Shown here: piece after piece, positions 2,879-28,097 of the stretch
Layout of the letters: every line of letters begins with the position of its first letter
How positions within the stretch are numbered: position 1 is the stretch's first letter
Virus record (IMG/VR): IMGVR_UViG_3300037585_000076
Location: 1-28,097 of that record
Source of the DNA: a virus
Strand: one strand, 5' to 3'
Length of the DNA stretch: 28,097 nucleotides
Program-made: the position numbers and the translations under genes
Notes under the pieces: generated by a model
What the model saw: only the letters and a program-made list of their open reading frames with translations
Databases searched by the model: none
What the model was told of the DNA's origin: nothing

Positions 2879-3580
2879 ATGGACATTAAAGAACAAATCT
2901 TAGTAGCTCTAGGTCTTAACAAAGAAGAAACAATTAAGTTAGAGTGGCAAGCAAAATCAGAAGACGGAACAATCTTTGTTTCAACTGCTGATGAATTAGA
3001 AGCAGGAGTGGACATCTCAGTTTTGACGGAAGACGGAACTACAATTTTATTACCTGTTGGAACTTACAAGACTGATACAGGCGTATCTTTCAGAGTTGAA
3101 GAAGAAGGTATTGTTGCTGAGGTTATCGAGTCAGAAACTGAAGAAGTAGATACCGTTGAAGAAGAAGATTTATCAGAAGAAATAAAAGAAGAAGAATTAG
3201 CTGAAGAAGATGATGATAGAAAAGAAGAAGCTGACGTTGCAGATTGGAAAGGTATGGAGAAAAGAATTCAAAATCTAGAAGACGCAGTAGCACGACTTAA
3301 AGAAGATAAAGTTGGAGGTGATGACGAAGTTGAAGAATTAGCTGAAGAAACAGAAGAACCTTCTACAAATCCTAAGTCTATCAAAACTACAGAAGTAGTT
3401 GAATTTTCAATTGAAGAATTAAAAGCTGAAAATGATAAACTAAAAGCTGAGTTAGCAGCACAACCTGCTTCAGCACCATTAGATACTAACAAGTTCAGTT
3501 CAGACAGAAAACCAATGTCAAGAAAAGAATATGCTAAGTTATCTAAAAGAGAAAAATTCTTACAAGATTTAAACAAATAA
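2879..3580 (+). CDS. Capsid scaffolding protein
   Basis: This 233-residue protein is very acidic. An N-terminal beta-rich segment (about 20-80, with repeated EDGT motifs) is followed by a Glu-rich low-complexity stretch (about 85-120). A short helical coil comes next (MEKRIQNLEDAVARLKEDK), then a second acidic stretch, a KAENDKLKAELAAQ coil at about 180-195, and a basic C-terminus (SRKEYAKLSKREKFLQDLNK). The acidic coiled-coil body with a basic C-terminal helix is the usual architecture of internal scaffolds, whose C-terminus contacts the capsid protein. It sits between protease and capsid genes, which supports the role. No catalytic motif is visible. Assignment is by architecture and position, not by a diagnostic motif. 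Confidence 0.7.
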   Translation: MDIKEQILVALGLNKEETIKLEWQAKSEDGTIFVSTADELEAGVDISVLTEDGTTILLPVGTYKTDTGVSFRVEEEGIVAEVIESETEEVDTVEEEDLSEEIKEEELAEEDDDRKEEADVADWKGMEKRIQNLEDAVARLKEDKVGGDDEVEELAEETEEPSTNPKSIKTTEVVEFSIEELKAENDKLKAELAAQPASAPLDTNKFSSDRKPMSRKEYAKLSKREKFLQDLNK

Positions 3581-3606: not shown

Positions 3607-4524
3607 ATGGCTTTTACAACAACAAGCAACTTTGCAGGAAAGGCAGCAGGATTTTACGTATCGGCAGCTTTAAACCAAGCAACATCACTAGACTACTTAA
3701 CTATGATTGAAAACGTTAAGTATAAGTCTAACATTCAAAAAATGGCAGGTTCATCATTAGTAAAAGACGCTACTTGCGACTTTACTGATGCAGGTACTTT
3801 AGCACTTACTGAGAATGTATTAACACCAAAGAACCTACAAATCAACTTAGACCTTTGCAAGGCTACACTTTTAGACTCTTGGGAAGCGTTACAAATGAGA
3901 GCAGGAGCAGGAGCACCACCACCTGTAAGCTTTGATGACTATGTAATCTCTTATATGGGAGAAATTATCGCTAACGGAGTTGAATCTTCAGTATGGTCAG
4001 GAGCAGCAGCTACAGCAGGAGAATTTGAAGGTTTCTTAACAGGAACTACAGGTATCTTTGCAGTAGACGGAACAGTTCAAACTTCATCTGCTTCAGGTGC
4101 TTATACAGCAGCTAACATTATTGCTAACTTACAAACTTTAACATCTGATATGGCAACTAAGATTTCTGCTGTATTAAGAAAAGATGACTTACATATCTAT
4201 ATGAGTCCTAAGACTTACGCTTTATATGTATCAGCAGTATCTACTTTAGGATATGTTAATGCTTACAATATGAATGGAGACTATGCACCTGTATTTGAAG
4301 GGTACAAAATCGCTGTTTGTAATGGAATGGCTAACGACCAATTAGTAGCAGCAGAGAAGTCTAACTTATTCTTCGGAACAGATTTAATAAGCGATATTGA
4401 CGGACCTAGTATCAAATTAATGGATATGTCAGCTCTCGATGGGAGCGATAATATGAGATTAGTTGCTCGTTACTCAGGAGGTGTTCAGTTAGGTATCGGA
4501 GCTGATATCGTTCACCAATCATAA
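3607..4524 (+). CDS. Major capsid protein (HK97-fold type)
   Basis: This 305-residue protein lies directly after protease and scaffold. It reads like small HK97-fold capsid proteins from Bacteroidetes phages: an Ala/Thr-rich N-arm, a helical segment with LDLCKATLLDSWEALQMRAGAG, a P-domain-like stretch (IYMSPKTYALYVSAVSTLGYVNAY, about 199-222) and a C-terminal beta portion (NMRLVARYSGGVQLGIGADIVHQS). It would form the icosahedral shell with the scaffold and protease. The gene has the strongest-looking A-rich leader and is followed by a stable hairpin, both consistent with high expression. Capsid identity is well supported by context; the fold is inferred. Confidence 0.85.
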   Translation: MAFTTTSNFAGKAAGFYVSAALNQATSLDYLTMIENVKYKSNIQKMAGSSLVKDATCDFTDAGTLALTENVLTPKNLQINLDLCKATLLDSWEALQMRAGAGAPPPVSFDDYVISYMGEIIANGVESSVWSGAAATAGEFEGFLTGTTGIFAVDGTVQTSSASGAYTAANIIANLQTLTSDMATKISAVLRKDDLHIYMSPKTYALYVSAVSTLGYVNAYNMNGDYAPVFEGYKIAVCNGMANDQLVAAEKSNLFFGTDLISDIDGPSIKLMDMSALDGSDNMRLVARYSGGVQLGIGADIVHQS

Positions 4525-4542
4525 TAAAATAAATAATACGGA

Positions 4543-4564
4543 AGTGGGTGCTTAGGCACTCACT
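4543..4564 (+). terminator. Stem-loop after the capsid gene
   Basis: AGTGGGTGC pairs with GCACTCACT (9 bp, one G-T wobble) around a TTAG loop. It lacks a clear T-tract, so it may be an mRNA-stabilising 3' hairpin or a weak terminator rather than a full one. Loop and stem resemble the terminator at 5202-5230. Confidence 0.55.
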
Positions 4565-4574
4565 CCCTTAACCC

Positions 4575-4589
4575 AAAAAAACAAAAAAC
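4575..4589 (+). promoter_or_regulatory. A-rich translation leader of the tail tube gene
   Basis: AAAAAAACAAAAAAC precedes ATGGCTT, nearly identical to the capsid gene leader at 3591-3606. Probably an efficient initiation region in the absence of a Shine-Dalgarno. Confidence 0.5.
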
Positions 4590-5174: not shown

Positions 5175-5201
5175 TAGTTTTCTTATATAGTTCTTGATTA
5201 G

Positions 5202-5230
5202 GGTGGGCTTAGGCTCACCTTTTTCTTTTT
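5202..5230 (+). terminator. Intrinsic terminator after the tail tube gene
   Basis: GGTGGGC pairs with GCTCACC around a TTAG loop (7 bp with one G-T, extendable by two weaker pairs) and is followed by TTTTTCTTTTT. This is a classic factor-independent terminator and probably ends the scaffold-capsid-tube unit. A late-type motif follows 33 nt downstream. Confidence 0.8.
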
Positions 5231-5262
5231 ATTACTAACTGAATACAAATAAATACATAGTT

Positions 5263-5279
5263 TTTCTATTATATAACAG
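5263..5279 (+). promoter_or_regulatory. Late intergenic motif TTTCTATTATATAACAG, candidate phage promoter
   Basis: The 17 bases are identical to 20914-20930, with shorter matches at 18127 and 2837. It lies right after a terminator and 11 nt before the ATG at 5291, where a new transcript start would be expected. No Bacteroidetes TAnnTTTG element is present in this gap. Confidence 0.5.
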
Positions 5280-5290
5280 ACAAACTAACT

Positions 5291-5776
5291 ATGATACAAG
5301 CAACAACAGAAACTTCATTTATAATATATGTTCAAACTGAGGATAATCGTATAGACACTTCTGTAGCTTCTACTCAAATAAGACACTTAGTTAAATTCAC
5401 AAACGACTTAGATAAGTCTGTTCATTATGCTTATGGTAATACTGAAACAATTAAAGATAGGTTTACTACAATCAATATAAACTATGCAGCTTCATCTCCT
5501 AATATGTATGTAGGTGAAACAAAACTATTTCCCGCAGGATATTGGAAGTATGAAATTTACGAGGTTAGTTGGATAGGAACAGTAACCGTTTCTTTAGGGA
5601 ATGCACCTAAAAATGAAGATGATGTTTTAAGTCCTGCTTCTGTCACTAAGGGTGTAGTGCAGGGGTTAGTAACTAAGGGGAAGATGTATCTCGCAGAAAA
5701 AAATGGAACTGAGCAAGTTCAGTACACTCAAAGGCAAGAGCCGAGTGGAACAAATTATATATATTACGGACAATAA
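5291..5776 (+). CDS. Structural protein of unknown role
   Basis: I do not recognise a named family. The 161-residue product starts with a beta-rich region (SFIIYVQTEDNRIDT, KDRFTTININYA, YWKYEIYEVSWIGTVTVSLGN). It ends with a segment rich in Gly, Lys and Tyr (KGVVQGLVTKGKMYLAEKNG, then QVQYTQRQEP and IYYGQ). The C-terminus looks like a conserved tag seen in flavobacterial phage virion proteins, but this is memory rather than proof. It stands between the tail tube and portal genes and is first in a new transcription unit, 12 nt before a second small gene. A head or tail accessory protein is likely. Confidence 0.6.
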   Translation: MIQATTETSFIIYVQTEDNRIDTSVASTQIRHLVKFTNDLDKSVHYAYGNTETIKDRFTTININYAASSPNMYVGETKLFPAGYWKYEIYEVSWIGTVTVSLGNAPKNEDDVLSPASVTKGVVQGLVTKGKMYLAEKNGTEQVQYTQRQEPSGTNYIYYGQ

Positions 5777-6072: not shown

Positions 6073-6755
6073 TGTTAGCCCTTAAACAAGCATTAAGTTT
6101 AGTAAACACTAAAAGTTTAGGAGGGTGGACACCTGATTCTGAAGATTCAGTTGTGGCTTGGTATCAAGACGACACTAATATTACTTTTGACCCTTCTACA
6201 AGACTTGTTAGTGCTTGGAATGATAGTGCTAATAACCATGATATGGTTCAAGCAACTTTAAGTGAGCAACCGTTTAACTTCCCCGGCGTTCTTACAGGTA
6301 TTGTATTTGATGGAATTAATGATAACTTACAAACAACTGTTCAAATGAGTTTTTCAGGTGCATTTACTGTTGGCATAAAATGTAAGATTGATGCAACAGG
6401 AAAAGTATTAATTGCAGACAATACAACCGCTAACGAAATGTTTAAGATTACTTCATCAAACAATTTAAGAGTTAAAGTAGATGGGAACACAGCAGATTTA
6501 GCTTTAGCATCAGGTTCTTGGGGTGATGGTTATTTAGTAGTAACTAGAGATGCTTCAAATAATATGGGCTTATGGCATAATGGAGTAGACCAAAGTGTTT
6601 CAGTTAGTTTATCAGGTACAGCAGACATAGACGCAATAGGAGTTAGAAACACTGACTTAAATGCTTTTGATGGTACTATGTATGAGATACAAATCTTTAG
6701 TTCTGAAAGTTCAGCATTAACGGCTAACGTAAACAGTAGACTAGCAAACTTATAA
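6072..6755 (+). CDS. LamG/concanavalin A-like lectin domain protein
   Basis: The start is placed at the ATG overlapping the upstream stop (TAATG) rather than an in-frame ATG at 6012 inside the previous gene, giving 227 residues. After a short lead (LALKQALSLVNTKSLGG) the rest resembles a LamG/concanavalin A-like jelly roll: VVAWYQDD, LVSAWNDSANNHDMVQ, GIVFDGINDNLQT, FTVGIKCKID, LVVTRDASNNMGLWHNGVDQ and a closing YEIQIFSSES strand. Such domains bind glycans. As part of the virion it could sit on the capsid or tail and help attach to surface polysaccharide. It lies just upstream of the portal gene. The fold assignment is fairly firm; the ligand is unknown. Confidence 0.7.
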   Translation: MLALKQALSLVNTKSLGGWTPDSEDSVVAWYQDDTNITFDPSTRLVSAWNDSANNHDMVQATLSEQPFNFPGVLTGIVFDGINDNLQTTVQMSFSGAFTVGIKCKIDATGKVLIADNTTANEMFKITSSNNLRVKVDGNTADLALASGSWGDGYLVVTRDASNNMGLWHNGVDQSVSVSLSGTADIDAIGVRNTDLNAFDGTMYEIQIFSSESSALTANVNSRLANL

Positions 6756-6757
6756 AT

Positions 6758-8617
6758 ATGAAAGATACAATATTAAGCATTAATTTAGAAACTTCAACAG
6801 CTCCTGTAATACAGGAAGTAAGAGGGCGTGATTATATAGAGTACGGCACAGAGGATTGGAGAAACCTCTACCCTCAGTTCTTAATTGACTTATACTACAA
6901 TTCTAGTACACACGCTGCTATTATAAATCAAACTTCGGAGCTAATCGCAGGTTCGGACTTAATTTGTGAAGAAGAAGACGCTATTAATTTAGAGTCTTAT
7001 GTTAAACTAAAGAAGTTTCTAAGACACGCTAATTCCAATGAAAGTTTACACCAAGTAATAAAAAAGGTAGCTTTTGATTTTAAACTTCAAGGTGGGTACG
7101 CTTTACATATTGTATGGAATAGAGAACGCACAGAAATTGCTGAACTGTATCACGTCCCTGTAGAGAGAGTAAGAGCAGGAAGACCTAATGACCTAGGTAA
7201 GGTTGATACTTTCTTTATAAGTGCTGATTGGGGAAACACTAGAACAAATAAACCTTACCCTATTGCTGCTTTTAATGTAAACGATAGGACTTCAGGAAGT
7301 CAATTAATTTATTCAGGTGCTTACAGTCCTAATATGGATATCTACCACACTCCTGATTACATAGCAGGTTGTAATTGGGCGTTAGTAGACCAAAAGGTTG
7401 CAGAGTTTCATTTAAACAATATAGAGAATGGATTTTCAGGCTCGTATTTCGTGAGTTTCGCAAATGGAATTCCAACATCTGAGGAAAGAAGACAGATAGA
7501 ACAAAGTTTAGTAGAGAAATTTACGGGTGCTTCTAACTCAGGGAAATTTATTTTAACGTTCTCAGACGATAAGACTAGAACTCCTGAAATAACTCCTATA
7601 AGTGTTTCAGATGCTGACAAACAATATTTAGCTTTACAAGAGCTTTTAGTTTCAAATATTTGTGCAGCTCACAGAATTACATCAAAGACCTTAATGGGTA
7701 TTGATACAAACAATGGATTTTCTAGTAATGCTGATGAACTTATAAATGCAGCTAATTTCTATCAAAATACAGTAGTTAGAGGTTTTCAATTAAATATCTT
7801 AAACACTTTACAAACTATATTCTCAGTAAACAATATGGACTTGCCTGTTGAGTTTGTACAATTAAAACCTATTACAGTTCAATTTGACTCTAAGACAATA
7901 AGGGAAGTTATGACGATTGATGAAATAAGAGCTGACTTAGGACTTGAACCTTTAGGAGAAGAAGATACAGTAGAACAAGATGTGAAGCTTGCTAAAACAG
8001 AAGCAACTGAACTTGATAAATTTATTGAAGAATTTGGAGAAGATATTTCAGAAGATTGGGAATTGATAGAAGAAGAAATAGTAGACGGAGAACACCAAGA
8101 CTTTGATTTTGAAAACGAGCTTAATAATATAGCTAATGATAAAACAGAATTAGCTTCAACAGGAACTGCTAGACCAAATGCTAGAAGTGAGCAAGACGGA
8201 ACAAATAAGTCAGATAATGAGTTTTATAAAGTTAGATATGTTTACACTAAAGATAATTTCCTAAGTCAAGAAGGAAGTACAAGAGATTTTTGCAGTAAAA
8301 TGATGTCAGCAAGAAAAGTTTACAGAAAAGAAGATATTTTACAAATGGGTTCAAGAGCTGTAAATGCAGGGTGGGGACCGAGAGGAGCAGATACTTATTC
8401 TATATGGCTTTACAAGGGCGGTGGTAACTGTCATCATTTTTGGTTGAGACAAATCTATAAGACATCTTTAAGAGGTGCAAAGAGTAATATCAAGCCAAGT
8501 GAAGCAATATCTTACACTAAAGCATTATCTGAAGGATTTACAGCTGAGAGAAACGACAAGTTAGTAGCAAGACCACCAAAGAGAATGAAGAATAACGGAT
8601 TTTTAGAACCAAGATAA
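6758..8617 (+). CDS. Portal protein with an additional C-terminal Cys/His domain
   Basis: Residues 1-410 have portal features: an early IEYGTEDWRNLYPQFLIDLYYNSSTHAAIINQTSELIAG segment (written here only as a landmark region at about 27-65), a wing/stem region with KKVAFDFKLQGGYALHIVW and YHVPVERVRAG, and helical ADKQYLALQELLVSNICAAHRI. An acidic linker (about 420-480) leads to an extra domain (about 495-580) with FCSKMMSARKVYRKEDI and a YKGGGNCHHFWLRQ motif. That C-terminal Cys...CHH pattern recalls the Cys/His end of Mu gpF/SPP1 gp7 head morphogenesis proteins, so this could be a portal-MuF-type fusion. The portal forms the dodecameric DNA gate and terminase docking site. The gene overlaps no neighbour but is tightly spaced. 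Confidence 0.8.
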   Translation: MKDTILSINLETSTAPVIQEVRGRDYIEYGTEDWRNLYPQFLIDLYYNSSTHAAIINQTSELIAGSDLICEEEDAINLESYVKLKKFLRHANSNESLHQVIKKVAFDFKLQGGYALHIVWNRERTEIAELYHVPVERVRAGRPNDLGKVDTFFISADWGNTRTNKPYPIAAFNVNDRTSGSQLIYSGAYSPNMDIYHTPDYIAGCNWALVDQKVAEFHLNNIENGFSGSYFVSFANGIPTSEERRQIEQSLVEKFTGASNSGKFILTFSDDKTRTPEITPISVSDADKQYLALQELLVSNICAAHRITSKTLMGIDTNNGFSSNADELINAANFYQNTVVRGFQLNILNTLQTIFSVNNMDLPVEFVQLKPITVQFDSKTIREVMTIDEIRADLGLEPLGEEDTVEQDVKLAKTEATELDKFIEEFGEDISEDWELIEEEIVDGEHQDFDFENELNNIANDKTELASTGTARPNARSEQDGTNKSDNEFYKVRYVYTKDNFLSQEGSTRDFCSKMMSARKVYRKEDILQMGSRAVNAGWGPRGADTYSIWLYKGGGNCHHFWLRQIYKTSLRGAKSNIKPSEAISYTKALSEGFTAERNDKLVARPPKRMKNNGFLEPR

Positions 8618-10843: not shown

Positions 10844-10959
10844 GTTTTTAACGCTTTTTTCAACTAATTTCAATCTTTTTTTAAATTTATTTTAGTATCA
10901 TTTACTAGATAAGAGATAACTTTTTTTAATATTTTTAGTTAAAAAGTATGTTAAAAGTT

Positions 10960-10988
10960 TTGTCAGTAAGTTTTTTATTGTATCTTTG
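10960..10988 (+). promoter_or_regulatory. Bacteroidetes-type host promoter for the early region
   Basis: TTG (10960-10962), an 18-nt spacer and TATCTTTG (10981-10988) match the Bacteroidetes -33 TTG / -7 TAnnTTTG consensus. It lies in the largest intergenic gap (10844-11026), which is otherwise AT-rich and T-tract rich with no hairpin that I can see. Transcription would begin near 10991-10995, giving a leader of about 35 nt before the ATG at 11027. Confidence 0.8.
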
Positions 10989-11026
10989 TACCATCAAAAT
11001 TAAATAAATAACTAAAAACACACAAA

Positions 11027-11197: not shown

Positions 11198-11217
11198 AAA
11201 ACTAATATAATTAATCA

Positions 11218-11235
11218 GGGGGTGTAAAAACCCCC
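11218..11235 (+). other. GC-rich stem-loop in the early operon
   Basis: GGGGGT pairs with ACCCCC around a GTAAAA loop. It stands out in very AT-rich DNA, lies between the first and second early genes, and has no following T-tract. It may pause, protect or attenuate the early transcript. Confidence 0.5.
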
Positions 11236-11250
11236 ACAAACAATCAAGAA

Positions 11251-12084: not shown

Positions 12085-12151
12085 TTTTATTACTTTTACA
12101 CCAAATTATTAACAGGCAAAAACCCTAGCCAATTAACATAGGTAGAAATAT

Positions 12152-12561: not shown

Positions 12562-12888
12562 ATGGAAGTAACAGGAAAATTAGTAAAGATACTTGAATTA
12601 GAAACAGGAACATCTAAAGCAGGTAAAGAATGGAAGAAGCAATCTATCTTAATTGACACAGGTGGAGACTTTAACAATGAAATATGTGTAAGTGCCTTTG
12701 GTGATAAAGTAGGACAAATGCTTAAGCTAGAAGTAGGAATGGAGGTATCAGTTCTTTGTAATGTTTATTCAAGAGAATATAACGGAAGATATTTTCACAA
12801 TATAGATGGCTACTTTTTTACTAATCAGAGCAACAAACCATCAGGCAAGATACAGAATGGTGAAGCTGAAGAAGATATGCCTTTTTAA
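12562..12888 (+). CDS. Single-stranded DNA-binding protein, DUF3127/OB-fold type
   Basis: 108 residues, with a beta-barrel pattern (EVTGKLVKILELETGTSKAG, KEWKKQSILIDTGG, EICVSAFGDKVGQMLKLEVG, VSVLCNVYSREYNGRYFHNI) typical of the small OB-fold DUF3127 proteins of Bacteroidetes and their phages. The acidic C-terminus ends in EEDMPF, like the DDIPF tip of bacterial SSB that recruits repair and replication proteins. It would coat single-stranded DNA during replication and recombination. The leader is AAATAAATAAATAAAA. The next gene starts 1 nt after the stop. Confidence 0.75.
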   Translation: MEVTGKLVKILELETGTSKAGKEWKKQSILIDTGGDFNNEICVSAFGDKVGQMLKLEVGMEVSVLCNVYSREYNGRYFHNIDGYFFTNQSNKPSGKIQNGEAEEDMPF

Positions 12889-12889
12889 G

Positions 12890-13399
12890 ATGAATACAGA
12901 AGATAACTTTAAAAACCTTTGCGACCTTACTACAAATTTAGTAGGGTTGCCTAAAGGCTCTCTAGCTTTAAAAACTAGAAAGACGGAATATCAAGTACCT
13001 AGAATGGTTGCAGCTATGGTTGCAAGAATAGAAGATGAAACTCACAGGGATATAATTGCTAAAGTATTGGATAGAGATAGAACAAGTATCAATCATTATG
13101 AAAGATGCCACTCAGCTAACTATTCTTCATTCCCTTTGTACCGTAATACATTCAATAAAGTTTACAATGCTTATACGGAAATCAAGGACGCTAAATTAAC
13201 TTTTATTGACTTGTATAATTTACAGGAACATCTAAGAAAAAACGGAATACACGATAGCTCAAAACATCAAACAACTATTCGTATCAGTACAGGTAAATTT
13301 AAGATAGCTGTAAATGTTTCTTACAAAGACTTCTATAATCAATTAGAATTATGTAAGTTAGCCCTTCAAAATTATCAACACGAAATAGAAGTTATATGA
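12890..13399 (+). CDS. DnaA domain IV-like DNA-binding protein
   Basis: The start is set at the ATG just after the SSB stop, not at an in-frame ATG at 12806 inside that gene, giving 169 residues. Residues about 22-85 resemble the DnaA C-terminal helix-turn-helix: TRKTEYQVPRMVAAMVARIE, then IIAKVLDRDRTSINHYERCH, which parallels the RQIAMYL...RDHTTVxHA signature. No AAA+ ATPase is present. The rest is unknown but contains a TTIRISTGKFKIAVNVSYKD strand pair. It could bind the phage origin or compete for host DnaA sites. It is coupled by ATGA to the replication initiator-like gene. Confidence 0.6.
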   Translation: MNTEDNFKNLCDLTTNLVGLPKGSLALKTRKTEYQVPRMVAAMVARIEDETHRDIIAKVLDRDRTSINHYERCHSANYSSFPLYRNTFNKVYNAYTEIKDAKLTFIDLYNLQEHLRKNGIHDSSKHQTTIRISTGKFKIAVNVSYKDFYNQLELCKLALQNYQHEIEVI

Positions 13400-15402: not shown

Positions 15403-15759
15403 ATGACAGAACCGATATATGCAAGTGAGGAACATAGGACAATATTAGAAACCTATATTTTAATGTGTACTGAGTTTTCAAAAGAAGTAAGCACAAAAGC
15501 AAAATACAATAATTATTTAGATGTAGTTGAAATCATAGTTGAGTACCACAACAACTATGGTAAAGGAGTTAAAGAAAACAATTGGTACGATTGGTTAATG
15601 ATTATTCCAATTAACTTATCAGTAGCTACAAATGGTTTCTTTGCAGGGCTTGAAACAAAAAGTAATTCAGCTACACTTAGAGCCTATAAAACTGTCTTAG
15701 ATGAAATGGTACATGATGTAACAGATAAAATAGACGCATTAGAACAAATAAATGACTGA
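15403..15759 (+). CDS. Helical protein of unknown function upstream of the sigma-like gene
   Basis: 118 residues, no family recognised. Predicted all-helical (EEHRTILETYILMCTEFSKE, NNYLDVVEIIVEYHNNYG, NWYDWLMIIPINLSVATNGF, LRAYKTVLDEMVHDVTDKID). It overlaps the sigma-like gene by 8 nt, so the two are probably co-translated. The pair could act together in transcription control, but nothing in the sequence proves this. Confidence 0.5.
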   Translation: MTEPIYASEEHRTILETYILMCTEFSKEVSTKAKYNNYLDVVEIIVEYHNNYGKGVKENNWYDWLMIIPINLSVATNGFFAGLETKSNSATLRAYKTVLDEMVHDVTDKIDALEQIND

Positions 15760-16297
15760 GATATACGCAGAAATATCTAAGCTAAGTTCTTTTTTTAGGA
15801 AGATGTGTTATGGTATAACGCAAGATGAAGAAGCTATTAATGACGCTGTGCAGGAGCTTATGATATACTTCCTGCAAATGAACACTCAGACTTTACAGGG
15901 CATTTATGAAAAAGATGGTTTAAAAGGAATTAAAGGATATGGAGCTGTTGTATTGAAAAGAAGTTTAACAAGTGTAAGAAGTCCTTTTTATTATAAGTAT
16001 AAAAAATACTACACTAATTTAGTAGGAGTATATACACCAAGCTGTAGTCAGAACGCTTTTCATAATAGTATTTATAATTTACCTGAAGAAAAAGAAGATA
16101 ATTACAAATGGGAAAAGCTAGAAGAAATTGACAAAGTATTAGATAAGCAAACTTGGTACGATAAAAAGATATTTGAGCTTTACTACTCAGGTGAAACTTT
16201 AGACAGCCTAGCAAAGAAAACAGGAATAAGTAGAAACAGTCTTTTTACTACAATAGATAAAGTAAGAGAAATACTTAAAAAGGAATTGAATGAATAA
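15752..16297 (+). CDS. Sigma factor-like protein (ECF/sigma-70 type)
   Basis: 181 residues. The N-terminal part resembles ECF sigma region 2: ISKLSSFFRKMCYGITQDEE, INDAVQELMIYFLQMN and then the helix GIKGYGAVVLKRSLTS. The C-terminal part looks like region 4: YDKKIFELYYSGETLDSLAK and KTGISRNSLFTTIDKVREIL, a helix-turn-helix of the A/S-x-x-x-G-I-S-x-x-x-V type. Such a protein could redirect host RNA polymerase to phage late promoters. The match to regions 2 and 4 is by pattern only, and the linker (about 80-125) is not obviously conserved. Candidate recognition sites are the TTCTATTATATAA copies. Confidence 0.6.
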   Translation: MTEIYAEISKLSSFFRKMCYGITQDEEAINDAVQELMIYFLQMNTQTLQGIYEKDGLKGIKGYGAVVLKRSLTSVRSPFYYKYKKYYTNLVGVYTPSCSQNAFHNSIYNLPEEKEDNYKWEKLEEIDKVLDKQTWYDKKIFELYYSGETLDSLAKKTGISRNSLFTTIDKVREILKKELNE

Positions 16298-16881: not shown

Positions 16882-17131
16882 ACTAATTAAAAACCTAGAA
16901 ACTATGCCGCCAATTGAATTACAAGAAGTACCTGATTACTATAAAGGAAAAAACGGATATATGGCTAAAGATGTAGTAAGCAACTTTGACCTCAGTTACA
17001 ATATAGGAACAGCAGTAACTTATCTTTTGAGAAGTAAGAACAAACATAATGATAAAGGAGTTGAAGATATTAGAAAAGCAATAAATCATTTACACTTTGA
17101 ACTAGACAGATTACACAATGACGCTGTATAA
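16865..17131 (+). CDS. DUF3310 family protein (nucleotide kinase-like)
   Basis: 88 residues. The stretch DYYKGKNGYMAKDVVSNFDL followed by NIGTAVTYLLRSKNKHNDKG and VEDIRKAINHLHFELDRL matches the DUF3310 pattern (a conserved YL-x-R...K...D-x-x-KA-x-x-x-L core). The family is frequent in phages and has been annotated as nucleotide kinase-like, though its biochemistry is unclear. The start may be ATG 16904 (MPPIELQE), since the domain begins just after it. Coupled to the methyltransferase by a 14-nt overlap. Confidence 0.7.
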   Translation: MTQNDKLIKNLETMPPIELQEVPDYYKGKNGYMAKDVVSNFDLSYNIGTAVTYLLRSKNKHNDKGVEDIRKAINHLHFELDRLHNDAV

Positions 17132-17852
17132 AGGTGATTGCTTAGAGGTTATGAAGTTAATACCTGACGGAAGTATAGATGCTATTATAACAGACCCTCC
17201 TTACGGCACTACTGCCTGTAAGTGGGATAGCGTAATTAATTTTGAATTAATGTGGGAACAACTCAATAGAATTATAAAACCAAACGGGGCTATTGTTTTA
17301 TTTGGCTCAGAACCATTTTCAAGTTATTTAAGAATGTCAAATATAAAAAACTATAAATATGATTGGTATTGGGATAAAAAATTTGGCGGTAATTTTGTTC
17401 AAGCGAAAAGAATGCCTTTAAAAAACATAGAGTGTGTAAGCATATTTAGTAATAGCAATAAAATGCCTGAATATTATGCACAAATGACATTAAGAAATAA
17501 ACCAATAAAGCAGGGTGGAATTAAAACAAGCCAAGCAATACCAATAAAAAACAATAGTAAAACTCATACAAAAAAAATTTATAAATACAAATACCCATTA
17601 ACCCTATTGCAATATCCAAAAGAGTTAGGCAAAACAATACACCCAACACAAAAGCCTGTATTATTGATGGAGTATCTTATAAAAACCTATACAAAAGAAA
17701 ACGAATTAGTTTTAGATTTTACTATGGGCTCAGGCTCTACAGGAGTAGCTGCAAAAAACTTAAACAGAAAGTTTATTGGAATTGAGCAAGATGACAAGTA
17801 TTTTAAAATTGCAGAACAGAGAATAAAAGAAACTGAATATAAATTATTTTAA
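17118..17852 (+). CDS. DNA methyltransferase (adenine N6 or cytosine N4, beta-class order)
   Basis: 244 residues. The catalytic motif IV DPPYG lies at 26-30, and the SAM-binding motif I at 199-209 (LDFTMGSGSTG). HPTQKP at 175-180 is the conserved stretch before motif I. Catalytic motif first and SAM motif last is the beta-class arrangement. It would methylate phage DNA, probably to evade host restriction or to regulate. It is a stand-alone enzyme with no nuclease gene next to it. A second methyltransferase domain lies at 18154. Target sequence unknown. Confidence 0.85.
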   Translation: MTLYKGDCLEVMKLIPDGSIDAIITDPPYGTTACKWDSVINFELMWEQLNRIIKPNGAIVLFGSEPFSSYLRMSNIKNYKYDWYWDKKFGGNFVQAKRMPLKNIECVSIFSNSNKMPEYYAQMTLRNKPIKQGGIKTSQAIPIKNNSKTHTKKIYKYKYPLTLLQYPKELGKTIHPTQKPVLLMEYLIKTYTKENELVLDFTMGSGSTGVAAKNLNRKFIGIEQDDKYFKIAEQRIKETEYKLF

Positions 17853-17853
17853 T

Positions 17854-18111
17854 ATGACACTATACACTTGCGAATGTGGTAAAGAAGAAAAAGAAGTTGG
17901 CAAAGCTACAATAGTCCTAAGAGATAAAAAGTGGGTAACTAAGGAAGCACTATGCAGTTGTGGTAAGTATATGTATAGCAAGCCAACAGACGGAATGCCT
18001 AGCCTTAAAAGAACTGAAGCATCATTAAGTAAAAAAAAAAGAGGTGATAAGCTTTGGGCAGGTGCAAAAGAAAAGCTAATAGGAACAAGAGGAATAAATG
18101 AAGACTATTAA
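17854..18111 (+). CDS. Zinc-ribbon-like small protein
   Basis: 85 residues with C6-x-C8 and C34-x-C36 (YTCECGKEEK and EALCSCGKYM), a probable zinc ribbon. A basic tail follows (KPTDGMPSLKRTEASLSKKK). It resembles small phage zinc-ribbon proteins in the vicinity of terminase genes, with a GMP-x-L-x-RTE motif I believe recurs. It starts 1 nt after the methyltransferase stop. DNA binding is plausible; function unknown. Confidence 0.6.
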   Translation: MTLYTCECGKEEKEVGKATIVLRDKKWVTKEALCSCGKYMYSKPTDGMPSLKRTEASLSKKKRGDKLWAGAKEKLIGTRGINEDY

Positions 18112-18126
18112 ATAAATAAACAAAAA

Positions 18127-18139
18127 TTCTATTATATAA
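18127..18139 (+). promoter_or_regulatory. Late intergenic motif copy before the ParB-methyltransferase/terminase unit
   Basis: TTCTATTATATAA is identical over 13 bases to the copies at 5263 and 20914 and lies in the 42-nt gap, 14 nt before the ATG at 18154. Confidence 0.45.
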
Positions 18140-18153
18140 AAAGACACTACATT

Positions 18154-19290
18154 ATGAAACAACAAGTTAAGATAAGTAAAGTAAAGGGAAACCCTGACAA
18201 TCCTAGAATAATTAAGAACGATAAATTTAAAAAGCTAGTGAAGTCAATACAAGAGTTCCCTGAAATGTTAAAGCTTAGACCTATTGTAGTTGATGAGGAC
18301 TTTATGGTGCTTGGTGGCAATATGAGATTAAAAGCAAGTAAAGACGCAGGGCTTAAAGAAGTATGGATAGAAGTAGCAGAAGGACTTACTGAAGAACAAA
18401 AGAAAGAGTTTATCGTTAAAGACAATGTAGGATTTGGAGAATGGGAATGGGATATGTTAGCTAATGAATGGGATAGCGTACAACTTGCTGAATGGGGTTT
18501 AGATGTATGGGAAAATGAAGATGATAAAATAGCTGAAGCAGGATTAATAGAAGATGATGAAATACCTGAAGTAAAAGAAAGCAAAGTAAAGCGTGGTGAT
18601 ATTTGGCAACTAGGAGAACACCGACTTATGTGTGGTGATAGTACAAGCTCAGATGATGTAGAGAAACTAATGAATGGCGAAAAAGCTGATATGGTATTTA
18701 CAGACCCACCTTATGGAATAGGATATGATAATGAGGATAGATGGAATGGAATAAAAAAACAAAATAGTAAAGCTAAAAGAAATAAAAATAAAATTATTAT
18801 TGGAGATGACAAAGATTTTGACCCTAGTTTTATTTTAACACTATTTAGTTATGTAAAAGAGATATTCATTTGGGGATTTCAATACTATCCTCATAAATTA
18901 GGAAGGGGTGGTATTATTGTTTGGAATAGAAAAACAGAAACCCAAAAAGATGTACCACACACAGACTTTGAGTTATGTTGGTCAAAACAAGAACGAAATA
19001 AAATGGCTTGGATTACTTGGGGTGGATTTAAAAATAAAGAAAAAGGAGAGGATAGACTGCATACTACACAAAAACCTATTGAACTAGCTGAGTGGTTTTT
19101 TAATAATTGGGGAAAAGAAAGTAATTTAATAATTGATTTATTTTTAGGTTCAGGTTCAACACTAATAGCAGCAGAGAAACTAAATAGAAAATGTTACGGA
19201 ATGGAATTAGACGAAAAGTATTGTGATGTAATAATAGAAAGATGGGAACAATTTACAGGACAAAAAGCAATAAAGAATGGAACAGAATAG
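18154..19290 (+). CDS. ParB-like domain fused to a DNA methyltransferase
   Basis: 378 residues. The N-terminal part (about 1-110) is ParB/Srx-like: NPRIIKNDKFKKLVKSIQEF, RPIVVDEDFMVLGGNMRLKA with the GGNxRLKA motif. The C-terminal part has IWQLGEHRLMCGDS, then DPPYG at 184-188, HTTQKP at 303-308 and DLFLGSGST at 328-336, i.e. a beta-class N6-adenine/N4-cytosine methyltransferase. ParB-methyltransferase fusions are common in phages and often lie next to the terminase. The enzyme could mark phage DNA against host restriction or at the packaging site. It overlaps the small terminase gene by 14 nt. Confidence 0.85.
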   Translation: MKQQVKISKVKGNPDNPRIIKNDKFKKLVKSIQEFPEMLKLRPIVVDEDFMVLGGNMRLKASKDAGLKEVWIEVAEGLTEEQKKEFIVKDNVGFGEWEWDMLANEWDSVQLAEWGLDVWENEDDKIAEAGLIEDDEIPEVKESKVKRGDIWQLGEHRLMCGDSTSSDDVEKLMNGEKADMVFTDPPYGIGYDNEDRWNGIKKQNSKAKRNKNKIIIGDDKDFDPSFILTLFSYVKEIFIWGFQYYPHKLGRGGIIVWNRKTETQKDVPHTDFELCWSKQERNKMAWITWGGFKNKEKGEDRLHTTQKPIELAEWFFNNWGKESNLIIDLFLGSGSTLIAAEKLNRKCYGMELDEKYCDVIIERWEQFTGQKAIKNGTE

Positions 19291-19630
19291 AACAAAGATT
19301 AACAAAGAGAGATTACTCAAAGCTTTAGAAAGTTCTTTAGGAGTAATAACTACAGCTTTAAAAGCAACTGACCTAAGCAGAACAAACTTTTATAAGTGGC
19401 TAAAAGAAGATGAAGAATTTACAGCTAAAGTAGAAGAAATAGAAAACATACAGCAGGACTTTATTAAGTCAAAGTATTATGAATGTGTAAAGGATAAAGT
19501 ACCATCAGTTGTAATACACGCTGCAAAGACTAGGTTAGGTTGGAATGAAACAAATAGAGTAGATATAACTTCAGGAGATAAAGCAATTAATATGCCTGTT
19601 ATAACATTTGTTGAAACTGATACTGAATAA
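19277..19630 (+). CDS. terS: Terminase small subunit
   Basis: 117 residues. An N-terminal helix-turn-helix (KERLLKALESSLGVITTALK, ATDLSRTNFYKWLKED) is followed by a helical oligomerisation region (EEFTAKVEEIENIQQDFIKS, KYYECVKDKVPSVVIHAAKT) and the RLGWNE motif frequent in phage small terminases. It recognises the packaging site and hands DNA to the large subunit. It overlaps upstream and downstream genes by 14 and about 20 nt. Position directly before the large terminase makes the assignment strong. Confidence 0.8.
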   Translation: MEQNRTKINKERLLKALESSLGVITTALKATDLSRTNFYKWLKEDEEFTAKVEEIENIQQDFIKSKYYECVKDKVPSVVIHAAKTRLGWNETNRVDITSGDKAINMPVITFVETDTE

Positions 19631-20819
19631 AAAATATAATCCACTATTTTCATCTGATGCTCGTTACTTTATAATCACAGGTGGCAGAGGTTCAGGTAAG
19701 TCTTTTGCTGTTACAGTCTTTTTAACTTTACTTACAATGACTAAAGGGATAAGAATACTCTTTACTCGTTTTACAATGACTTCAGCTCACTTATCAATTA
19801 TTCCTGAGTTCTTGGAAAAGATAGGGCTGCTAGGATTTGATGAAGTCTTTAGCATTAATAAAGCAGAAGTAGTAAACACAAGCAATCAGTCAGATATTCT
19901 ATTTAGAGGAATTAGAACCTCAGCAGGAAACCAAACAGCTAGCTTAAAGTCTTTACAGGGAATAAGCACTTGGGTTTTAGATGAAGCTGAAGAGCTAGTA
20001 GATGAGAATATATTTGACACTATTGATTTAAGTATTAGAGAAAAGAACATACACAATAGAGTGGTATTAATATTGAACCCTGTTACTAAAGAACATTGGA
20101 TATATAAAAGGTTTTTTGAGGACAAAGGCGTAGAGGGTGGTTTTAACGGCTTTAAGGACAATGTATGCTATATACATACTAGCTACCTAGATAATATTAA
20201 AAACCTCTCACAGAGCTTCCTAGAGCGTATTAAGACTATAAAGCATAGAAACTTTAAAAAGTATCAACACAAAATCTTAGGAGGTTGGTTAGACAAGGCT
20301 GAAGGAGTAGTCTTTGAGAATTGGAGTATTGGAGAGTTTAATCCTGATGGACTACAGACTTCTTGTGGAATGGACTTTGGCTTTAGTGTAGACCCTGATA
20401 GTCTTACAGAAGTTGCTATTGATAAAAGAAAGCGTAAGATATATTTAAAAGAACATATCTACAAGAATGGTATTAAGTCAAATGAGTTGGCTAAAATAAT
20501 ATTAGACAAAGTAGATAATAAACTTATCATAGCCGATAGTGCAGAGCCAAGACTAATTGCAGACCTTAGACATTTAGGAGTAAACATAAAGCCTGTAAAA
20601 AAAGGAACTATTGAAAGTGGAATAACTCGTATGCAAGATTATGAATTAATCATAACTCCTGAGAGTACTAACATAGCTAAAGAATTGAATAACTACATAT
20701 ACGCTGACAAAGGTTCTAAGCTTTATGTAGATAATTATAATCACGCAATAGATGGTGTTAGGTATAATGTTATTTACCATCTAGATAATCCAAATGCAGG
20801 GAAGTATTATGTGCAATAA
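19608..20819 (+). CDS. terL: Terminase large subunit
   Basis: 403 residues from TTG 19608 (TTG 19611 is also possible); no ATG occurs nearby. The ATPase has Walker A GGRGSGKS (25-32), a likely adenine/coupling segment and Walker B VLDEAEE (123-129). The C-terminal RNase H-like nuclease has GMDFGFSVDPDS with D256, IADSAEPR with D310 and HAIDGVRY with D382, the three acidic metal ligands. It drives DNA into the prohead and cuts it. The short length is normal for compact phage TerL. The start overlaps the small subunit gene, so the two are probably coupled. Confidence 0.9.
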   Translation: MLKLILNKKYNPLFSSDARYFIITGGRGSGKSFAVTVFLTLLTMTKGIRILFTRFTMTSAHLSIIPEFLEKIGLLGFDEVFSINKAEVVNTSNQSDILFRGIRTSAGNQTASLKSLQGISTWVLDEAEELVDENIFDTIDLSIREKNIHNRVVLILNPVTKEHWIYKRFFEDKGVEGGFNGFKDNVCYIHTSYLDNIKNLSQSFLERIKTIKHRNFKKYQHKILGGWLDKAEGVVFENWSIGEFNPDGLQTSCGMDFGFSVDPDSLTEVAIDKRKRKIYLKEHIYKNGIKSNELAKIILDKVDNKLIIADSAEPRLIADLRHLGVNIKPVKKGTIESGITRMQDYELIITPESTNIAKELNNYIYADKGSKLYVDNYNHAIDGVRYNVIYHLDNPNAGKYYVQ

Positions 20820-20913
20820 AAAGGAAAGCGACCTAAGCCGCTAACCCCACAAGTTTATGAAAACAGGGCAAAGATAACATTTTAAATTAAAGCAGTAAAC
20901 TAAAAACAACAAA

Positions 20914-20930
20914 TTTCTATTATATAACAG
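20914..20930 (+). promoter_or_regulatory. Late intergenic motif TTTCTATTATATAACAG before the tail module
   Basis: The 17 bases are identical to 5263-5279. This copy lies at the end of a 111-nt gap after the large terminase and ends directly before the ATG at 20931. If it is a -10-type element the transcript would begin at or after the ATG. A leaderless transcript or another role in initiation must therefore be considered. Confidence 0.45.
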
Positions 20931-21530
20931 ATGAAAGTAAAAGTCAAAAAAGAAGGTAAAGTAAAAGAGTTCAAATTGATTAATAGTTGGGAAGATGTAA
21001 CTCTTGAAAAATGGTTGCAACTTATTGATTTTGAAACAGGTACAAAGACAGAAGAAGCAACTGAAACAATAGCAGCGTTATCTAATATTCCTAAGCAGTT
21101 AGTAAAGGAATTAGCTTTATCAGATGTGGCAGTAATAATGAGTAGGATTGCAGAGCTACAGCAAAAGCAAGATACAAAGCTAAAAAGGATAATTGAAATA
21201 GATGGTATTGAGTACGGCTTCCACCCCGATTTAGACAGCATTACAATAGGGGAGTATGCAGACTTGGAAACATTTATTAAGGGAGGAATTGAAAAGCATT
21301 TACCTGAAGTAATGGCTGTTCTTTATAGACCGATAAAAGAAAAGAAGAATGATATTTATATTATTGATGCTTATGATGGAGACATTCGGCTTAGGACGGA
21401 AGAAATGAAAAAGATGTCAGCTGAACAGGTACAAAGTGCTTTACGGTTTTTTTTTGTTTTAGGGAAGGAGTTGTCAGAGATTTTGCCATTGTATTTGATG
21501 GAGCAGCTGAAGGAAATGAAGACGCAATAG
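20931..21530 (+). CDS. Tail assembly chaperone, short (pre-frameshift) form
   Basis: 199 residues in frame 0. N-terminal VKEFKLINSWEDVTLEKWLQ and later DGIEYGFHPDLDSITIGEYA, LETFIKGGIEKHLPEVMAVL and LRTEEMKKMSAEQVQSALRF. The position between terminase and tail genes, and the slippery site near the 3' end, correspond to the lambda gpG-type chaperone that coats the tape measure during tail assembly. Frame 0 continues past the slip site for 24 more codons. The longer -1 product is listed separately. The start is ATG; no Shine-Dalgarno is present. Confidence 0.75.
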   Translation: MKVKVKKEGKVKEFKLINSWEDVTLEKWLQLIDFETGTKTEEATETIAALSNIPKQLVKELALSDVAVIMSRIAELQQKQDTKLKRIIEIDGIEYGFHPDLDSITIGEYADLETFIKGGIEKHLPEVMAVLYRPIKEKKNDIYIIDAYDGDIRLRTEEMKKMSAEQVQSALRFFFVLGKELSEILPLYLMEQLKEMKTQ

Positions 21531-27371: not shown

Positions 27372-28097
27372 TGAGCAAAGTAGAAACAATACCATATTTA
27401 AGCGGGTTTGATGTAAAACCTTTAGCAGTATCAGGAATAGGAGATGTAACTTTTACTGATGGAACTGATGAAATAACGCCTAACCAAAAACAATGTGAAG
27501 CTTATGGATATACCTATAATGAAGCAACAGGAACTTGTAGAGCTTTTGAATATAGTGCAAGTTTACAAGTAAACACTATTAATGAAAGTAATTTTATTCA
27601 AGGTGCAAATAACACAACTGCAACAGGTACTAACAACACCTATATAATGGGAGAAAATAATACTGTAAAAGGTATGTCAAAAAATAACATTATAATAGGA
27701 AATCAAAACGAAATAGCAAACGGGGTAAACAATGCTAATGTTTTTGGCACTTTAGGAGAAGCTACAGCTGATAACTCAATAGTCTTAGGGGGTAATGCTC
27801 CTGAAGATAATTTAGCTGAAAGACAGTCTATTCATTTAATGTATGGAACACAAACTACAACAGGGAGTACAGTTGATAGTTATTTGAATAATATATCAGG
27901 AAATTACTTTACTATTCCTGAAAATACTGCTATATACTTTCACGCTGATATTCTAGCTGTAAGAGTTGGAGGAACAGGAGCAGGCTCTACAGGTGATTTT
28001 GCAAGTTGGGTAGAAAGAGGAGTAGTAATAAACAAGTCAGGAACGCTAAGTATTGAAAGAGAAAGAGATACAATTAAAAGTTCAGGAACAGTTGGAA
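27371..28097 (+). CDS. Tail fiber/adhesin-like structural protein, 5' part (continues at position 1)
   Basis: The ATG at 27371 overlaps the last base of the upstream stop (TAATG). The frame is open to the window end and matches the frame at the left end. The N-terminal 70 residues are unique (SKVETIPYLSGFDVKPLAVS, then a NQKQCEAYGYTYNEATGTC segment with two Cys). YadA-head-like repeats follow (GANNTTATGTNNTYIMG, IIIGNQNEIANGVNNANVFG). The N-terminal region probably docks to the tail tip and the repeat region trimerises. Confidence 0.65.
   Translation, partial: MSKVETIPYLSGFDVKPLAVSGIGDVTFTDGTDEITPNQKQCEAYGYTYNEATGTCRAFEYSASLQVNTINESNFIQGANNTTATGTNNTYIMGENNTVKGMSKNNIIIGNQNEIANGVNNANVFGTLGEATADNSIVLGGNAPEDNLAERQSIHLMYGTQTTTGSTVDSYLNNISGNYFTIPENTAIYFHADILAVRVGGTGAGSTGDFASWVERGVVINKSGTLSIERERDTIKSSGTVG
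27582..28097 (+). repeat. Right copy of the 516-bp terminal overlap
   Basis: Aligns without gaps to bases 1-516 with 14 substitutions. See the left copy for interpretation. Confidence 0.9.

Follow-up and report, generated by a model that had tools for sequence, protein, structure and literature searches.

Phages that read their late promoters with a sigma factor of their own are already a known kind of system. Late transcription in T4 uses the sigma factor gp55 and TATAAATA promoters (PMC2988020), and phiEco32 and phage 7-11 each encode a sigma factor with its own middle/late promoters (PMC4331800). In the Bacteroidota, the housekeeping promoter is of the form TTTG / TAnnTTTG, and in Flavobacterium johnsoniae 87% of the predicted leaders are longer than 10 nt (PMC6847099). 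How Bacteroidota phages control their late genes is little described. Our search of the literature found no mapped late promoter class for Bacteroidota phages or flavophages, and no description of the sigma–promoter family presented here, of its sequences, or of its clade-by-clade turnover.

The DNA analysed here (the whole stretch, which we call 'the window') is 28,097 bases long and is a virus record of a marine phage. Its genes run on the plus strand, and its recognisable proteins are a portal, a terminase, and head-protease-like and capsid-like proteins. The last 516 bases (27582–28097) are near-identical, not identical, to the first 516 (1–516), with 98% reported over 300; such ends fit a genome of about 27.6 kb that is circular or has terminal redundancy, assembled as from slightly different strains. 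The window carries a repeated bipartite element, and it is likely, in our judgement, that this repeat forms the core of a phage-specific late promoter read by a phage-encoded sigma factor.

phiEco32 and 7-11 resemble the window phage in that their early promoters are of the host type, their sigma gene lies among the non-structural genes, and their structural genes are preceded by a few well-conserved promoters specific to the phage. The phages and hosts are unrelated, however, and here the element is a different one, bipartite and AT-rich, with a core that often abuts the ATG and a promoter activity that is predicted. As in T4, a small phage sigma factor is proposed to guide the host core polymerase to a short AT-rich core before structural genes. 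Unlike in T4, the window element has a conserved second box about two helical turns upstream, and the sigma model has ECF-like regions 2 and 4; the core is CTATTATATA with its conserved upstream box, rather than a TATAAATA core without one. With ECF sigma factors that use two-box promoters, the window protein shares a predicted region 2, linker and region 4, and its best PDB folds include ECF sigmas, but it lies below the Pfam cut-offs and its proposed boxes are AT-rich, unlike typical ECF boxes. The Bacteroidota housekeeping promoter appears to be used in an early gap, and the AT-rich motif near −28 in F. johnsoniae would coincide with AAATAAA if transcription starts at the ATG; the late gaps, in contrast, are without TAnnTTTG, and several late mRNAs of the phage are predicted to be leaderless.

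Among cultured phages, the closest are P12024S and P12024L of Nonlabens (terminase 63% identical, portal only 31%), from which we infer a Bacteroidota host. They have a syntenic Sigma-70 region 2 gene and a bipartite element before their late genes, but their core is CGTTAATATA and their boxes are spaced by 14 rather than 12. A DNA search found no near-identical cultured phage; relatives are abundant among IMG/VR contigs. A scan of genome contigs matched two MAG contigs, both of which resemble free phage contigs, so no host can be named from that scan. Phage contigs of the family are binned in MAGs labelled Pseudooceanicola and Euryarchaeota (L247 and L248), probably through contamination by free phage.

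The bipartite element and its conservation

The element reads AA[AC][TC]AAA-N11-T[CA]TATTATATA, or equivalently AA[AC][TC]AAA-N12-[CA]TATTATATA. In the whole window, this full form occurs five times on the plus strand and not at all on the minus strand, and 300 third-order Markov simulations of the window gave no match. The core alone, [CA]TATTATATA, was found five times against 0.24 expected. A sequence-only reading of the window had drawn attention to a 17-mer occurring identically at 5263–5279 and 20914–20930, with a 13-base match at 18127–18139, an 11-base match at 2837–2847 and a weaker copy before 2116. Sequence search bore all of this out, the weaker copy reading ATATTATATAAT. The frequency in shuffled sequence, proposed then as a check, favours the motif as well: with up to three mismatches the 17-mer has five matches against 0.54 expected, and none of 100 dinucleotide shuffles reached five. 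The core being nearly palindromic, two of these five relaxed matches are read on the minus strand. What had been overlooked is the AAATAAA-type box upstream, at fixed spacing. All five copies belong to one repeat family (D2) that extends further 5' than the 17-mer, and with the upstream box they are roughly equal in quality.

Each copy is a candidate late promoter on the plus strand, is conserved in relatives, and precedes a plus-strand gene. The first, at 2085–2113 (AAATAAA-N12-ATATTATATA), stands two bases before the ATG of a head-protease-like gene (2116–2829). The second, at 2819–2847 (AAACAAA-N12-CTATTATATA), overlaps the 3' end of that gene with its upstream box and lies 31 nt before an acidic gene (2879–3580), possibly a scaffold gene to judge by position and composition, after which comes the capsid-like gene (3607–4524). 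The third, at 5247–5275 (AAATAAA-N12-CTATTATATA), contains the first 17-mer and lies 15 nt before the ATG of the gene at 5291–5776, with the portal gene (6758–8617) further downstream. The fourth, at 18110–18138 (AAATAAA-N12-CTATTATATA), precedes by 15 nt, and in many relatives by 1 nt, the ATG of a ParB-domain DNA methyltransferase gene (18154–19290), downstream of which is the terminase large subunit gene (19608–20819). The fifth, at 20898–20926 (AACTAAA-N12-CTATTATATA), contains the second 17-mer and lies 4 nt before the ATG of the gene at 20931–21530, the first of a run assigned to the tail by position. The claim that one copy follows an intrinsic terminator holds in so far as a terminator-like stem-loop with a T-tract (5200–5221, plus strand) is placed directly 5' of the third copy, in a scan whose total of terminators is about the same as that of shuffled sequence.

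Upstream regions were compared for the orthologs of 42 window genes in 160 relative loci, allowing the core at most one mismatch. The core is present upstream of the orthologs of 2116 in 20 of 34 distinct regions, of 2879 in 30 of 33, of 5291 in 48 of 48, of 18154 in 28 of 31 and of 20931 in 58 of 63; at every other window gene it occurs in none to three regions. Recurrence in relatives, another of the checks suggested earlier, is thus found before the same five genes. An alignment of 200 sites has two conserved blocks, A-A-(A/C)-(T/C)-A-A-A and (T)CTATTATATA, separated by poorly conserved sequence. In 2.4 Mb of relative loci, the bipartite form has 196 distinct plus-strand sites; the three control readings of these loci (reverse complement, reversed and complemented) contain none. 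The two boxes are 12 apart at 246 of 322 core sites, and near-complete relatives typically have about five sites each, on one strand. The distance from core to ATG, by comparison, varies with gene and relative from 1 to about 35 nt: for orthologs of 18154 it is mostly 1 or 14 nt despite the same protein start (MKQQV), and for those of 5291 mostly 1, 3, 4 or 14 nt. Nor is the near-palindrome kept, the mirror base of the conserved C being G in only 28% of sites; a palindromic operator was rejected since symmetry is not conserved across sites.

In the window and its relatives, the motif is found before late genes and not before early ones. As the sequence-only reading had stated, the early gaps 10844–11026, 11198–11250 and 12085–12151 hold no copy. 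One of them holds a candidate host-type promoter, TTTG-N18-TATCTTTG, at 10959–10988 (plus strand), 5' of the early genes. In the orthologous gap of relatives, downstream of gene 10112, TTG-N16-22-TAnnTTTG is present in 45 of 87, where shuffles give 1.8%; for the −7 box the figures are 72 of 87 and 20%. Only one of 203 late upstream regions has the bipartite host form. The early genes thus appear, from their sequence, to be served by host-type promoters. The host-type TAnnTTTG box had also been said to be absent from the five late gaps. This is so on the plus strand, where none was found, but the minus strand has one, at 20876 in the last gap. A host housekeeping promoter, with its TAnnTTTG −7 box, was rejected for the late genes on account of that absence.

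A predicted phage sigma factor

Between the replication genes and the terminases lies an ORF of 181 aa (15752–16297, plus strand) that was previously unannotated and was identified by fold. We predict that it encodes a two-domain, ECF-like sigma factor, and propose it as the reader of the five promoters. It weakly matches sigma and transcription-regulator families in PHROG (E 2.4e-4). Against Pfam Sigma70_r2 and Sigma70_r4_2 it falls below the curated cut-off (13.1 bits vs 25.7), and the syntenic gene of P12024S passes the Pfam sigma cut-off (25.2 vs 24). The AlphaFold model, made from 31 relatives, has a mean pLDDT of 71.9 and a pTM of 0.46. It consists of two helical domains (residues 2–84 and 118–178) and a disordered linker (86–117), and as modelled it has the ECF arrangement of regions 2 and 4 only, joined by a linker. 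Foldseek comparison of the model with the PDB returned sigma factors as the top matches, many of the ECF type; the best, 6dv9_F, has a probability of 1.00 and a modest E-value of 9.9e-3. Among the viral matches that carry a name are homologs of RpoE and sigma-70. Searching PDB sequences with the sigma profile gave no meaningful match, nor did tblastn in phage records, although P12024S has a syntenic, very diverged sigma factor. By fold and profile, then, the phage encodes a protein of the sigma-70 family.

The sigma family is present in 27 of 28 near-complete records, and a sigma gene lies 1.2–4.9 kb upstream of the terminase gene in every one of the 25 loci that extend 8 kb or more in that direction. 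The exception is G008, which has copies of the motif and no detectable sigma factor. In this record (L335/L336), two different early regions flank one late region, and the early region that adjoins the terminase is without sigma. It is likely an assembly hybrid of strains, and we count it as weak evidence against a phage-encoded reader.

Co-divergence of cores and sigma factors, and the alternatives

In P12024S and P12024L (NC_018271, NC_018272), a gene annotated 'Sigma-70 region 2' occupies the place corresponding to the window sigma, and late genes are preceded by AAAACAAA-N14-CGTTAATATA, an element that ends 2–3 nt before the ATG and is not annotated in these records. The window core was tried as the P12024 late element and rejected, as these phages carry their own. 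Relatives that share the P12024 sigma (48–99% identity) carry the P12024 core type too. At the corresponding late genes, the core is TTTTAAAATAAA in the L252 group and TTTTATATTTAT in the L273 group. Each of the four cores is clade-specific and strand-specific, and more distant groups carry a sigma of their own in the corresponding position and a core of their own before late genes. Within the window group, the outliers G025 and G022 have changed cores (CTATAATATA-like and CCTTTATATA, respectively) at two or more promoters. That several separate sites change in concert implies a changed trans-acting reader, for which the phage sigma would be the simplest candidate. The L252 sigma matches both the window-clade profile (E 6e-7) and the P12024 profile (E 4e-4), which supports one sigma family; direct comparison of the window-clade and P12024 profiles is weak (probability 19%). 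Common descent confounds the parallel divergence of core and sigma. In the G025 sigma (L325, ORF at 6708), Asn replaces the Lys/Arg of most relatives before the FYYKY motif (YGTVALNRALTS vs YGAVALRRALTS). This Asn is a candidate specificity residue; it occurs in L230 as well, whose promoters were not seen.

The promoters might be read by a host sigma factor instead—an alternative one, an ECF one, or the housekeeping one redirected by a phage activator—while the phage sigma-like protein serves elsewhere. Bacteroidota genomes encode many ECF sigma factors, and G008 has its motif copies without a sigma that we could detect. We nevertheless consider this improbable, given that the phage sigma accompanies the motif in every other near-complete record, that TAnnTTTG is absent from the late gaps, and that cores shift together at several late promoters whose genes are largely unchanged, which fits a reader inherited along with them. 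We think it very unlikely that the element, instead of being a promoter, is a DNA-level signal or the binding site of a phage DNA-binding protein engaged in repression, packaging or replication. The near-palindromic core in the window would suit such a site, and the phage encodes HTH proteins besides the ParB-domain methyltransferase; the symmetry is lost among relatives, however, and the conserved copies share one orientation, before the starts of gene groups, with the second box at a fixed distance.

Slighter still is the chance that the element serves highly expressed late genes as a signal for translation initiation or in the mRNA leader. The core does often run up to the ATG, and F. johnsoniae, which has no Shine-Dalgarno sequences, relies on other features around the start codon (PMC6847099). 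Against this, the distance to the ATG is variable even among orthologs with the same N-terminus while the box spacing is constant, and internal late genes (capsid, portal) are without the element. A late promoter read by the phage sigma is supported, for its part, by conservation before the same five genes, strand specificity and rigid two-box spacing, and further by the absence of the element from early genes, the host-type promoters in the early gap, and the sigma-like phage protein itself.

Predicted transcription starts and neighbouring genes

Under the phage-sigma reading, the RNA polymerase of the host, carrying its own housekeeping sigma, would transcribe the early genes from the TAnnTTTG promoter at 10959–10988. 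This early run would include the small ECF-like sigma gene at 15752–16297, whose product would then direct the host core polymerase to the five bipartite promoters that precede the gene groups for packaging, head and tail. If these work like sigma-70 promoters, the transcript would begin some 11–13 nt past the first base of the core, in many copies at the ATG or a few bases from it. The copy ending at the ATG at 20931 had been flagged earlier as one that would need a leaderless transcript or a role other than promoter. That caveat is real and general, cores in relatives often ending 1–4 nt before the ATG; with so many copies abutting it, we predict several late mRNAs to be leaderless or nearly so.

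This geometry assumes that the first bases of the core correspond to −12/−11, as in sigma-70-type promoters and in the host −7 element, with its T−12 and A−11 (PMC6847099). Where the core abuts the ATG, transcription would begin at the ATG or within about 2 nt of it, and the AAATAAA box would be centred near −28, where promoters of F. johnsoniae have an AT-rich motif (PMC6847099). Read as a classical −35 box at the standard distance, AAATAAA would place the start within the coding sequence of some ORFs. This argues against such a reading, and implies another kind of upstream element or a shorter spacing.

A wider proposition, to which we give about even credence, is that these phages represent a widespread family of small marine Bacteroidota phages with co-diverging, possibly orthogonal sigma–promoter pairs, and with several promoters that start at the AUG and yield leaderless structural mRNAs. 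If so, the core changes in concert with the sigma while the promoter-bearing late genes stay largely the same, and structural genes are expressed from mRNAs without leaders, inside hosts in which most cellular mRNAs have one. What is gained is a concrete candidate sigma–promoter pair that has five sites in each genome, together with a relative in culture (P12024S) and a set of natural replicates whose cores differ. These make sigma–promoter co-evolution directly testable, and likewise the translation of leaderless mRNAs in a phylum that does not use Shine-Dalgarno sequences.

Several neighbouring features deserve mention. The gap after the capsid-like gene (4525–4589) has a hairpin (GGGTGCTTAGGCACTC) and no promoter copy; the hairpin is possibly a partial terminator that sets the dosage of capsid mRNA. 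ORF 12806–13399, which adjoins a replication-initiator-like gene, has a weak, below-cut-off match (E 0.0055) to the C-terminal HTH of DnaA. The ParB-fused DNA methyltransferase gene (18154–19290), proposed here to be under late control, has a second DNA-methyltransferase-like ORF (17118–17852) just 5' of it, and evasion of host defences is one possible role for the two.
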